A stretch of 42,933 nucleotides of DNA from an uncultured Mycoplasmatales bacterium (lineage in GTDB: Bacteria; Bacillota_I; Bacilli_A; Mycoplasmatales; Mycoplasmoidaceae): positions 1 to 42,933 of the forward strand of contig CASPLF010000003.1 of NCBI GenBank assembly GCA_949422915.1. Reading direction: 5' to 3'. The position numbers and the translations under genes are program-made. Positions 37,842-42,410 of this stretch are shown in pieces. Every line of letters begins with the position of its first letter. The first letter of the stretch is position 1. A model generated the notes under the pieces. The model made no database searches and had not been told where the DNA came from. It worked only from the letters and a program-made list of their open reading frames with translations.

Positions 37842-38792
37842 ATGCCAGTTTACAAAGATACTTCTAATGATTCAAATACTTATGATGCTCTAATAATTGG
37901 AGCAGGACCTGCTGGTTTAACAGCAGCTATTTATTTATGTCGTGCTCAATACAAAGTAGGATTTATTGAAAAAGATGTACCAGGTGGAAAAATAGTTAAT
38001 ACTCCACGTGTCGAAAATTACCCAGGTGCTGGTAAAACAGATGGTGCTGACTTAGCGTTAAAAATGTATCAGCAAGCCATTGATCTTGGTGCGCAATACA
38101 TTTATGGTAATGTTTCTAATTTTGATTCTAATGGACGTTATTTTAGAGTTTATACAGAAGATGGTGTTACAAGATATTGTAAAACATTATTAATAGCCTC
38201 TGGAACCACTGAAAACAAATTAGATTTACCTAATGAAAAAGAATTAGAAGGTAAAGGTGTTTCTCATTGTGCAATTTGTGATGGATCATTTACTCAAGAT
38301 AAAAATGTGGCAATTGTAGGAAGTGGAGCAGGAGCGTTAGGGAATGCTTTATATTTATCATCAATTGCAAAGCATGTATACATGCTTAACAGATCTGAAC
38401 AATATAAAGACAAACAAGATTTCTTAAAGCAAATTGCTACAAAAGAAAATGTTTCAATTTCTTACAATACAAAAGTTACTAAATTAATAGGTCAAGATAA
38501 ACTTGAAGCAATTGAAGTTACTGATTCTAAAACTAATGAAACTAAGAAATTAGATGTTTCATATTTATTTGTTTATGTAGGAAGCAATGCTTCAACAGAT
38601 TTTATTACTGATAAATCAATCATTAGAGAAAATGGAACAATTGCAGTCAACGAAAACATGCAAACATCAATTCCTGGTTTATATGCAATAGGTGATGTTA
38701 ATAAAATTAAAGTAAGACAAATAACAGTTGCATGCGCTGATGGAACAATAGCTGCATTAAACGCTGTTAATTATTTAGAAAAATGGAAGTAA
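37842..38792 (+). CDS. trxB: Thioredoxin reductase
   Basis: 316 residues, complete in the track. It carries electrons from NADPH to thioredoxin. FAD-binding GAGPAGLTAAIYLCRAQY, redox-active Cys pair in CAICDGSF, NADPH-binding GSGAGALGNALYLSSIAKHVYML, and C-terminal PGLYAIGDVN complete the order of domains. In a catalase-poor mollicute this is the main thiol-redox enzyme. The end overlaps whiA by ten bases. Confidence 0.96.
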   Translation: MPVYKDTSNDSNTYDALIIGAGPAGLTAAIYLCRAQYKVGFIEKDVPGGKIVNTPRVENYPGAGKTDGADLALKMYQQAIDLGAQYIYGNVSNFDSNGRYFRVYTEDGVTRYCKTLLIASGTTENKLDLPNEKELEGKGVSHCAICDGSFTQDKNVAIVGSGAGALGNALYLSSIAKHVYMLNRSEQYKDKQDFLKQIATKENVSISYNTKVTKLIGQDKLEAIEVTDSKTNETKKLDVSYLFVYVGSNASTDFITDKSIIRENGTIAVNENMQTSIPGLYAIGDVNKIKVRQITVACADGTIAALNAVNYLEKWK

Positions 38793-39691
38793 AACAAACT
38801 TTCAGTGAAAAACTAAAAAGTGAGTTGTGTAGTAATGTCTATAGTAATCAAGCACAAAAAGCTATTCTTTATTCATTCTTAAGTAATTCATTGTCAATTA
38901 GTTTAACAAACAAAGGAGAAATTTGAGAACTTAAATCTCAGTTTTTCTTCATTATTAAATTCATGTCTGATTTGTTTACAGAATTATATGATGTAAAAAA
39001 ATCAGTAATGTTTACAGGCATTAACAAAATTAATAATCATCGAGTTTATATGTTAAGAGTTACAGGTAACTTTCAACAAATAACAACTGATTCAGGATTG
39101 TTAAAAAAACCTGTTGATGTAATTAAAACAACAGCACAAATGAAAGGTTTTTTAGTTGGTGCTTTTTTATCTGGTGGTAGTATTAGTTCATCAACTGATC
39201 GGAGATATCATTTAGAAATTCGTTCAAATAATGTAGCGTATTTATTGTTTATCCAAACAATATTAAATAAGTTTAATATTTCAATTGCTTTAAGTCAAAG
39301 AAGAAATGGTTATTTTTTATACATTAAAAAAAGTTATGATATCTCAGATTTTTTAAAACTTATAGGTGCTAATAATTGCATGTTGGAATTTGAAGACACA
39401 AAAATTTCAAGAGACTTATTTACCCAAATGAATAGATTGAATAATCTCGATATTTCTAACATTAAGAAGTCATCTTCTGCTGGTAATAAACAAATTCAAA
39501 AGATTAAACAAATTATGAATACTGAAATCTATGAAAAACAAAGTAAGAAATTTAAAATATTTTGTCAATTAAGGTTAGAAAACGAGAACGCTTCATTAAG
39601 TGAATTATCAAAATTATTTTTAGAAAAACATAACATTAAGATTAATAGAACTTCTATTAATCACTATGTGATTAAATTAAAAAGACTTTAA
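38783..39691 (+). CDS. whiA: WhiA-family DNA-binding protein
   Basis: 302 residues starting at ATG 38783 inside the trxB end (MEVKQTFSEKLKSELCSN); the track starts after a TGA Trp. WhiA combines a LAGLIDADG-like fold (KGFLVGAFLSGGSISSSTDRRYHLEIRSNNVAYLLFIQTIL) with a C-terminal helix-turn-helix (ENASLSELSKLFLEKHNIKINRTSINHYVIKLKRL). In M. gallisepticum and M. pneumoniae-type genomes it is linked to control of ribosomal protein genes. The gene end overlaps the next gene (minus) by four bases. Confidence 0.92.
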
Positions 39692-39990
39692 TTTAACAAA
39701 TAAACTTCGTACCCATGATATTCTAAAAATCTGTAATATTGTGCCATATGATGATATTCGCCTAAGATTATGATTTTTTTAGTTTTATCTAGAACGCTTT
39801 TATACACTTTTTTAAATTCTCCAGGAACGATAAGAACAGAAAAAAGAATATGATTATTTGTTCATTCTTCTCTAGGCATTACATGAACTATTTGATAATC
39901 AATATTTCTTGATAAATTTTTCAAGTATTTGCTTTCAATATATTTTGGTCTGATATCTTTGTTGAAAATATTTTTTAAGATATTGCTCAT
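39688..39990 (-). CDS. Hypothetical 100-residue protein
   Basis: Not in the track because of a TGA Trp (REEWTNNHILF). Read from ATG 39990: a basic N-terminus, then alternating strand and helix-like segments (DYQIVHVMP, HILFSVLIVPGEFKKVYKSVL, KKIIILGEYHHMAQYYRFLEYHGYEVYLLN). The pattern suggests a small alpha/beta fold, with the final IIILGEYHHMAQYYRFL resembling a Rossmann-like strand-turn-helix. There is no signal peptide or membrane helix. It lies between whiA (convergent, 4-base overlap) and secG (divergent, 24-base gap). Function unknown. Confidence 0.75.
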
Positions 39991-39996
39991 AACAAT

Positions 39997-40004
39997 ATTA
40001 TAAT
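39997..40004. promoter_or_regulatory. Palindromic -10 element shared by secG and the small gene
   Basis: ATTATAAT is its own reverse complement, so TATAAT can be read both ways. On the plus strand it ends ten bases before the secG ATG; on the minus strand six bases before the hypothetical gene's ATG. The whole gap is 24 bases and neither gene has a Shine-Dalgarno. Confidence 0.55.
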
Positions 40005-40014
40005 TTTAGTTAAT

Positions 40015-40248
40015 ATGTCAGCATCATCAATTATCATATTAGTTATTTCAATTATTTGTTTGATCATTGGTTTACTACTATCAGGAAACGGATCAACAAA
40101 TGGTTTAACTAATATTATTGGACAAGATCTAGAATTATTTAAGAAAACCAAAGACCGTGGTTTTGTTAAAATTTTACAAATGTTAATGTTCTTCTTGATG
40201 ATCATCATGCTTGTTTTACTTATTGTTTCAATTAAATGTAACTGATAA
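40015..40248 (+). CDS. secG: Preprotein translocase subunit SecG
   Basis: 77 residues: MSASSIIILVISIICLIIGLLLSGNGSTNGLTNIIGQDLELFKKTKDRGFVKILQMLMFFLMIIMLVLLIVSIKCNW. Two transmembrane helices flank a Gly/Ser loop and the ELFKKTKDRG segment, the SecG pattern. It supports SecYE-driven export with SecY (10362). The last codon is TGA (Trp) followed at once by TAA. rnr starts eight bases later. Confidence 0.9.
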
Positions 40249-40256
40249 CTTTTGTT

Positions 40257-42410
40257 ATGGCAGCTAATTTAAGTGAACTAATTGAAAAGACAGTTAAAGA
40301 AGATGGGAGACCAATCCCTAAAGGCGTTTTAATACATAAAGTATTAAAACAAAACAAAGATTTTAAATACAATGAAGTAGATAAACAGATTCAAGAACTT
40401 ATTAAATCTGGCACTCTTAAAGTTTTAAGTAAATCTCAAAAGATAGTTACAGGATATGAAACAGCGGAAGTAGATAATTCTAAAACATATGTTGGTACTA
40501 TTTCTATCAACGCTAAAGGATCAGGTTTTATTACTCTTGAAGGTAAACAAAAATCTGAATATTTTGTTTATAGAACAAATCTTAATGGTGCATTAAGTGG
40601 TGATAAAGTTGAATTTGCTTTATTAAAAAAAGAACCTCAAAAAGATTTAAGAGATGCTGTTGTTTTAAAAGTTATTGAACATGGTAAAGATTTTTATACA
40701 GGGTTAATTACTATTAATTCTGATGGTAGTTACACAGTTAAATTAGATGATGAAAAAATGTACTTGCCAGTAAAACTTGATGATATTCATGGTTTGGTAA
40801 CTGGTCAAAAAGTTCTAATTAAAATTCATAAATATGAACAAGATGCAGCTTATGGTACAGTGTCTAGAATTATTGGACACGCATCTGATGTTGGTGTTGA
40901 TATTCTTTCGATTGTATATGACAATGGAGTGGAACCTGATTTCACACAAGATGTTTTAGAATATGCTAGAAAGATTACTTTAAACATTGATGAAACTCAA
41001 AGAAAAATCAGAAGAGATTTAACTAATCTTCCAATAGTTACAATTGATCCAGCAACTTCAAAAGACTTTGACGATGCTATTTATGTTAAGAAAAATTCAG
41101 ATGATGAATATTTCTTATCTGTTTCAATTGCTGATGTTAGTCACTATGTAAGATATCAATCTGTGCTTGATGAAGCAGCATTAAAAAGAGGATGTTCTAT
41201 CTACTTAGTAGATAGAGTTATTCCAATGTTACCTCACAATTTGTCTGATGACATTTGTTCATTAAATCCTGATGTAGAAAGACTTACAATAACATGTGAT
41301 ATGTTAATTGATAAAACAGGAAAAATTAAAGACATTAAAGTTTTTCCAGCAATCATTAAAAGTCATAGACGTTTCAGTTATGATGAAGTAAATGATTATT
41401 TTGATGGTAAATCAAAATTAGAAAAGGATACAGATGAAGTTAAAGCAATGTTAAATGATGCTTTAGAGCTTCATAAAATTCTTGATGCTGAAAAGCACAG
41501 AAGAGGATATATTTCTTTTGAAATTCCTGAACCTATCATCAAACTTGATGATAAAGGTTTTCCTGTTGAAATTTTAACTAGAAAATTAGGTCGTGCTCAA
41601 AACATGATTGAAAATTTCATGGTTGCTGCTAATGAAGCTGTAACTATTTATGCTAATAGAAAGAAGTGGCCTTTTGTTTATCGTATTCACGATAAACCAA
41701 ATGAGGATAGACTTGCTGTTTTTGCATTAGAATCTAAGAAACTAGGATTTAGAATTACTACCGAATTAGAAGACATAACTTCTAAAGATATTTCTCAATG
41801 ATTGGAAGACAATAAAGATAACAAAAACTTAGATCTTATCAACTTAATGTTATTAAGAAGTATGGCAAAAGCAAAATATTCAATAGAAAATTTAGGTCAC
41901 TTTGGCTTAGCTCTTGAAAACTATACTCACTTTACTTCTCCAATTAGACGTTATCCAGATTTATTAGTTCACAGAATATTCTGAATGTATGAATTCCAGA
42001 AGAATGAATATTCTTCTAATAGAGATTCATTTGCAGAACAACTTTCAAAATTTTGTGACATGTCAAGTAAAAATGAATTAATTGCTATTAAATGTGAGAA
42101 TGATGTTAATGCAATGAAATTTGCTGAATATATGACTAAGCACATTGGTGAAGAATTTGAAGGATTTGTATCAGCTGTTTCAAATTTTGGTGTGTTTGTA
42201 GAATTACCAAACACTATTGAAGGCATGATTAAATTATCAGATTTAGGTAATGATTACTTTACTTACAATGAAAAAACTAAACAATTAATTGGTAAGAAAT
42301 CAGGAATCATTTATTCTTTAGGAAGTAAAGTAATTGTTAAGGTATTAGCAGCAAATAAAGAAACTAGAAAGATCGAGTTCTCTTTGGTTAAATTCTTAGG
42401 TAACAGATAA
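40257..42410 (+). CDS. rnr: Ribonuclease R
   Basis: 717 residues, joined across two TGA Trp codons. It is a 3'-5' exoribonuclease; in mycoplasmas it is the main one and it helps trim structured RNA and tmRNA-linked decay. N-terminal winged-helix region, cold-shock domain ([20 protein letters not shown]), RNB catalytic domain ([16 protein letters not shown] with the metal-binding Asp residues; [18 protein letters not shown]) and a C-terminal S1 domain ([33 protein letters not shown]) are in order. smpB follows after one base. Confidence 0.96.

Follow-up and report, generated by a model that had tools for sequence, protein, structure and literature searches.

The window analysed here is a 42,933-nucleotide stretch of DNA corresponding to contig C3 of a 56-contig, 724-kb assembly (hereafter referred to as G000), in the genes of which TGA must be read as Trp (code 4). 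The named relatives nearest to the window are Mycoplasmataceae or Mycoplasmatota metagenome genomes. A 24-nt intergenic gap separates two divergent genes, secG and a small rhodanese-like gene, and contains an 8-bp palindrome. The features of the locus are as follows:

38783–39691, plus strand: whiA, convergent with the rhodanese-like gene (open reading frame list and profile match)
39688–39990, minus strand: rhodanese-like gene, 100 amino acids, predicted to be leaderless (Pfam Rhodanese, E = 1.9e-6)
39975–39980, plus strand: TTAAGA, a weak -35-like hexamer (4/6) within the rhodanese-like coding sequence, 18 nt 5' of the plus-strand TATAAT
39991–40014, unstranded: divergent intergenic gap of 24 nt, AACAATATTATAATTTTAGTTAAT (direct sequence read)
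39997–40004, unstranded: 8-bp palindrome ATTATAAT, the overlapping -10 hexamers of both strands (sequence; kept in genomes G026, G011, G032, G029 and G035; control-palindrome test)
39997–40002, minus strand: TATAAT, predicted -10 of the rhodanese-like gene, ending 6 nt before the ATG at 39990 (sequence)
39999–40004, plus strand: TATAAT, predicted -10 of secG, ending 10 nt before the ATG at 40015 (sequence)
40015–40248, plus strand: secG, 77 amino acids, with a predicted leader of 0–4 nt (TIGR00810, E = 3.7e-9)
40257–42410, plus strand: rnr (ribonuclease R family), 8 nt 3' of secG (open reading frame list and profile match)

Direct reading of the sequence confirmed the gap and the palindrome described in an earlier sequence-only reading of this DNA, together with their coordinates and the distances of 10 and 6 nt to the two ATGs. 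The two TATAAT boxes overlap by 4 bp inside ATTATAAT, as in a bidirectional promoter of the shared type. SecG was identified by the TIGR00810 equivalog profile (36.5 bits, cut-off 30.85), and its closest record among the matches listed, CATDIL010000003.1, belongs to an uncultured Mycoplasmatota bacterium. On the basis of spacing, secG and rnr are probably co-transcribed. The rhodanese-like gene was found in only part of the genus. Its product scored above the gathering score of the Pfam Rhodanese profile (28.6 versus 22.2 bits) and thus carries this domain, but alignment with 12 relatives revealed no conserved active-site cysteine, and the protein is therefore probably a non-catalytic rhodanese-like fold. 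Both ORFs beside the gap are open under code 4, neither has an in-frame ATG, GTG or TTG between the upstream stop codon and its ATG, and neither is preceded by a Shine-Dalgarno (SD)-like motif. The rhodanese-like gene thus has the features of a TA-led leaderless gene (-10 at 6 nt, no SD and no alternative upstream start). For secG, which also lacks an SD, the -10 lies at 10 nt, within the 6–11 nt peak of the genome, and a leader of 3–4 nt is as likely as none.

This peak was found for TATAAT 5' of ORF ATGs throughout the genome, with gene starts predicted as the longest ORF with an ATG. TATAAT was present 5–11 nt before the ATG in 73 of the 499 scored ORFs (15%) of the G000 sample. An SD-like motif preceded one of these 73 genes, versus 133 of the 426 others (p = 8e-10), and this near-exclusive split indicates two classes of starts, one SD-led and the other TATAAT-led with little or no leader. 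No -35 signal was detected in the TATAAT-led class (at least a 5/6 match to TTGACA in 1 of the 73 genes, versus 2.3 in shuffles), and there was no signal for the TGN of an extended -10 (one case in the 73 genes). The seventh base after the box, where transcription would start, was an A in 46 of the 73 genes. These features agree with those published for Mollicute promoters, which have a TAWAAT box, a highly degenerated -35 and starts that mostly fall on an A, 6–7 nt past the box (PMC7745072). Judged by these sequence characters, the 73 TATAAT-led genes are a predicted leaderless, -10-only class. The earlier suggestion that the -10 elements may be the whole promoter therefore fits this genome, in which 73 comparable genes show no -35 or TGN signal as a group. 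A -35 or an extended -10 was rejected as part of the mechanism, since only the weak TTAAGA at 39975, which is probably not used, was found at the locus and the class as a whole has no such signal.

Sequences resembling a -10 are common in A/T-rich DNA. Two copies of ATTATAAT were present in the window, versus 5.4 expected from dinucleotide shuffles, and the genome contained 19, versus 107 copies of the reversed palindrome TAATATTA. This approximately fivefold difference indicates that ATTATAAT is avoided in G000. Such rarity is as expected if selection acts against stray two-way -10 sites. We then scored the palindromes flanked on both sides, at 4–14 nt, by the ATG of an ORF with 60 codons or more, in 540 of the 724 kb (all 19 ATTATAAT copies included). 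Both-side starts were found for 3 of the 19 copies of ATTATAAT and for 3 of the 1,933 copies of 15 other A/T-only 8-bp palindromes (Fisher p = 1.5e-5). These control palindromes, together with the gap shuffles reported below, rule out chance due to A/T richness.

A search of the genus for the pattern ATTATAATN{4,14}ATG was uninformative: in many genomes, the counts among the matches listed were close to those of the reversed control. Recurrence was therefore counted in sampled DNA from 12 genus genomes, in which gaps were identified with a simple ORF caller. Hexamers resembling a -10 occupied the same register in 11 of the 18 divergent gaps of 18–30 nt, versus a mean of 1.9 and a maximum of 7 in base shuffles of the same 18 gaps, and a perfect ATTATAAT was present in seven of them (shuffle mean 0.29, maximum 3). 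The register was found in 1 of the 48 divergent gaps of 31–60 nt. In G000 itself, it was present in six of the seven gaps of 18–30 nt, a recurrence that may have been inflated at most about 1.3-fold by the sampling, which covered 540 of the 724 kb in stretches, with a first batch picked to cover all 19 ATTATAAT sites; the other genomes were not so chosen. The 11 recurrences include two that are orthologous to each other (the rhodanese-like/secG pairs of G000 and G026), and one hypothetical pair occurs in both G000 and G023, leaving about nine independent pairs. The other pairs at such sites include trigger factor/glycosyltransferase and Abi_2/alpha/beta hydrolase, the boxes of the latter pair being separate in G011, where its gap is wider. 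The shortest type of gap is exemplified by 20 nt in G023 (L136 4662–4681). No divergent gaps of 18–30 nt were found in the 100 kb sampled from each of four other genera of the order. The arrangement thus recurs across the genus, beyond the single site of the earlier reading.

The hypothetical pair lies at L107 17541–17564 in G000 and at L136 4661–4682 in G023, which are distant members of the genus, and has an imperfect palindromic -10, ATTATACT. This sequence is kept at protein identities of 35% and 26%.

All 36 genus genomes have secG, and among the 29 members displayed, 27 have TATAAT close 5' of the secG ATG, with or without a divergent neighbour. A narrow divergent rhodanese-like/secG pair was found in G000, G026, G011, G032 and G029. 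ATTATAAT and its 6-nt minus-strand spacing are kept in all five genomes, and the rhodanese-like protein of G011, G032 and G029 is only about 42–46% identical. In these three genomes, secG may depend on a different box, since the plus-strand TATAAT is 17 nt away from the secG ATG, with a TACAAT closer to it, at 6 nt. The same pair is separated by 48–64 nt in G019, G033, G024 and G027, with two separate -10 boxes. The orthologous pair therefore exists both with fused and with separate -10s. A 12-mer common to the two types of gap is only moderately unlikely on the basis of composition (96 of 20,000 shuffles). In G035, a close relative, the rhodanese-like gene has been lost, leaving about 110 nt of it between whiA and secG (L100, about 2820–2930), and ATTATAAT is still intact; the gene may thus have disappeared recently from beside a promoter that was kept.

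We consider ATTATAAT to be a probable minimal core of a bidirectional promoter between leaderless or near-leaderless genes. These 8 bp would present TATAAT to RNA polymerase with the housekeeping sigma factor whichever way it faces, and the same TATA core would be melted for both directions. For leftward transcription, the start would lie about 7 nt past the box and coincide with the A of the rhodanese-like ATG, so that the mRNA would be exactly leaderless. For rightward transcription, the start would lie at about 40011–40012, which leaves 3–4 nt ahead of the secG ATG, or, if initiation slides, at the ATG itself (40015); the resulting secG-rnr mRNA would be leaderless or nearly so. With each start 7 nt from its box, the two would be separated by about 21 bp. 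The sequence-only reading had proposed a -10 shared by both strands and two transcripts lacking a leader. Conservation and recurrence give good support to the shared element, the activity of which in both directions is predicted. Leader-free translation would likewise apply to the minus-strand gene, whereas it is only approximate for secG, because the predicted start leaves a leader of 3–4 nt if initiation does not slide.

With leaderless genes and -10-only promoters, about 20–26 nt would suffice for a complete divergent control region, the minimum gap being 6+8+6 = 20 nt, and two full TATAAT boxes would fit best into this space in the ATTATAAT register. By our reckoning, two perfect boxes can be accommodated in ATTATAAT (about 21 bp between starts) or in ATTATATAAT (23 bp). 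They do not fit an 18-bp register, which would thus be unusable for a -10-only site needing a near-whole TATAAT. The architecture may therefore be viewed as a packing consequence of -10-only promoters plus leaderless genes. As the overlap of the -10s is largely forced by geometry at 20–26 nt, recurrence alone does not show a selected regulatory role.

The strongest competing explanation, which we nonetheless consider unlikely, is a one-way promoter, in which the TATAAT of a single strand is used and its palindromic partner is due to chance in A/T-rich DNA. The 17-nt plus-strand spacing and the TACAAT at 6 nt in G011, G032 and G029 are consistent with such a promoter, as is the persistence of ATTATAAT in G035 after the loss of the rhodanese-like gene, although this loss may be recent. 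Under this explanation, secG would use the box and the small gene would be silent or otherwise driven, or the roles would be reversed in the G011 group. Against it, the two spacings in the window fall within the genome-wide 6–11 nt peak, ATTATAAT is depleted throughout the genome yet enriched between divergent starts, and the same register recurs in most of the narrow gaps (11/18). Furthermore, no other start is available upstream for the small gene, and only the interior of secG offers space for another promoter.

It is considerably less probable that most secG transcription is read-through that arrives from the trxB-whiA side after crossing the small gene in antisense orientation, the palindrome playing a minor role. 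The 3' ends of whiA and the rhodanese-like gene overlap by 4 nt (39688–39691), and no terminator-like site was found at this junction or between whiA and secG, which lies downstream on the same strand, so that antisense read-through from whiA could occur. The path would, however, be antisense across the entire small gene, and TATAAT is kept near secG in almost all the genus members displayed (27 of 29), whatever the upstream neighbour. Finally, the perfect inverted repeat within a divergent gap might be thought to be an operator binding a dimeric regulator rather than a promoter core, but this very improbable reading was rejected, because ATTATAAT is just 8 bp long and identical to a consensus -10 on both strands, lies at the ATG distance of the -10 peak of unrelated genes and is carried by unrelated gene pairs, and one-mismatch forms, such as ATTATACT, still obey the rules for a -10.

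The preferred reading, a bidirectional promoter core, has precedents. Symmetric -10 bidirectional promoters have been described in E. coli and Salmonella by Warman, Grainger and co-workers, and two of their papers define bidirectional promoters by divergent transcription start sites 7–25 bp apart (PMC12825309, PMC10268837). The site described here resembles these promoters in having one short symmetric -10, here predicted to be used on both strands, divergent genes and a poorly conserved -35, and the predicted separation of about 21 bp falls within their range. The commonest register in E. coli is 18 bp (reciprocal -7/-11), with 10 and 23 bp also common (PMC12825309, PMC10268837), whereas this site has two full TATAAT boxes overlapping by 4 bp, with a predicted register of about 21 bp. 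Unlike the products of those promoters, both products here are protein-coding and predicted to be leaderless, which is why the promoter would fill the whole gap. Polymerases may compete for the shared site, as the earlier reading suggested; for five E. coli bidirectional promoters, polymerase competition was not seen at basal activity, but only after activation (PMC12825309). Back-to-back overlapping promoters of divergent genes have also been mapped by 5'-RACE in a Mollicute, Mesoplasma florum (PMC7745072), in which the TAWAAT box, the highly degenerated -35 and the starts 6–7 nt past the box resemble what is seen or predicted here, but for which one representative case of overlapping promoters and few leaderless starts were reported. 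The TA-led leaderless genes of Zheng et al. (2011; PMC3160421) have a similar TATAAT about 12 bp 5' of the start codon and account for an average of 18.3% of genes in five Mycoplasma genomes, versus 15% here (73/499). Divergent pairs with one common box are not discussed in that study.

We put forward, as a tentative proposal with somewhat less than even chances, that the genus systematically packs divergent leaderless pairs onto 20–26 bp regions whose sole element is a single fused -10 (either ATTATAAT or a sequence one mismatch away from it), with mutual exclusion of polymerases coupling the expression of unrelated genes. If this is true, such regions would approach the lower size limit of a complete divergent control region, with a register of about 21 bp between starts, unlike the E. 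coli optimum. The arrangement yields a packing rule with a minimum of 20 bp (6+8+6). It brings together symmetric -10 promoters and leaderless genes, both already known, in a divergent control region that may be nearly as compact as possible and that recurs and is conserved in a lineage with reduced genomes. The orthologous pairs with fused and separate -10s provide natural comparisons for determining whether a shared melting site couples or limits expression, and the arrangement bears on what a minimal promoter must contain for genome design.
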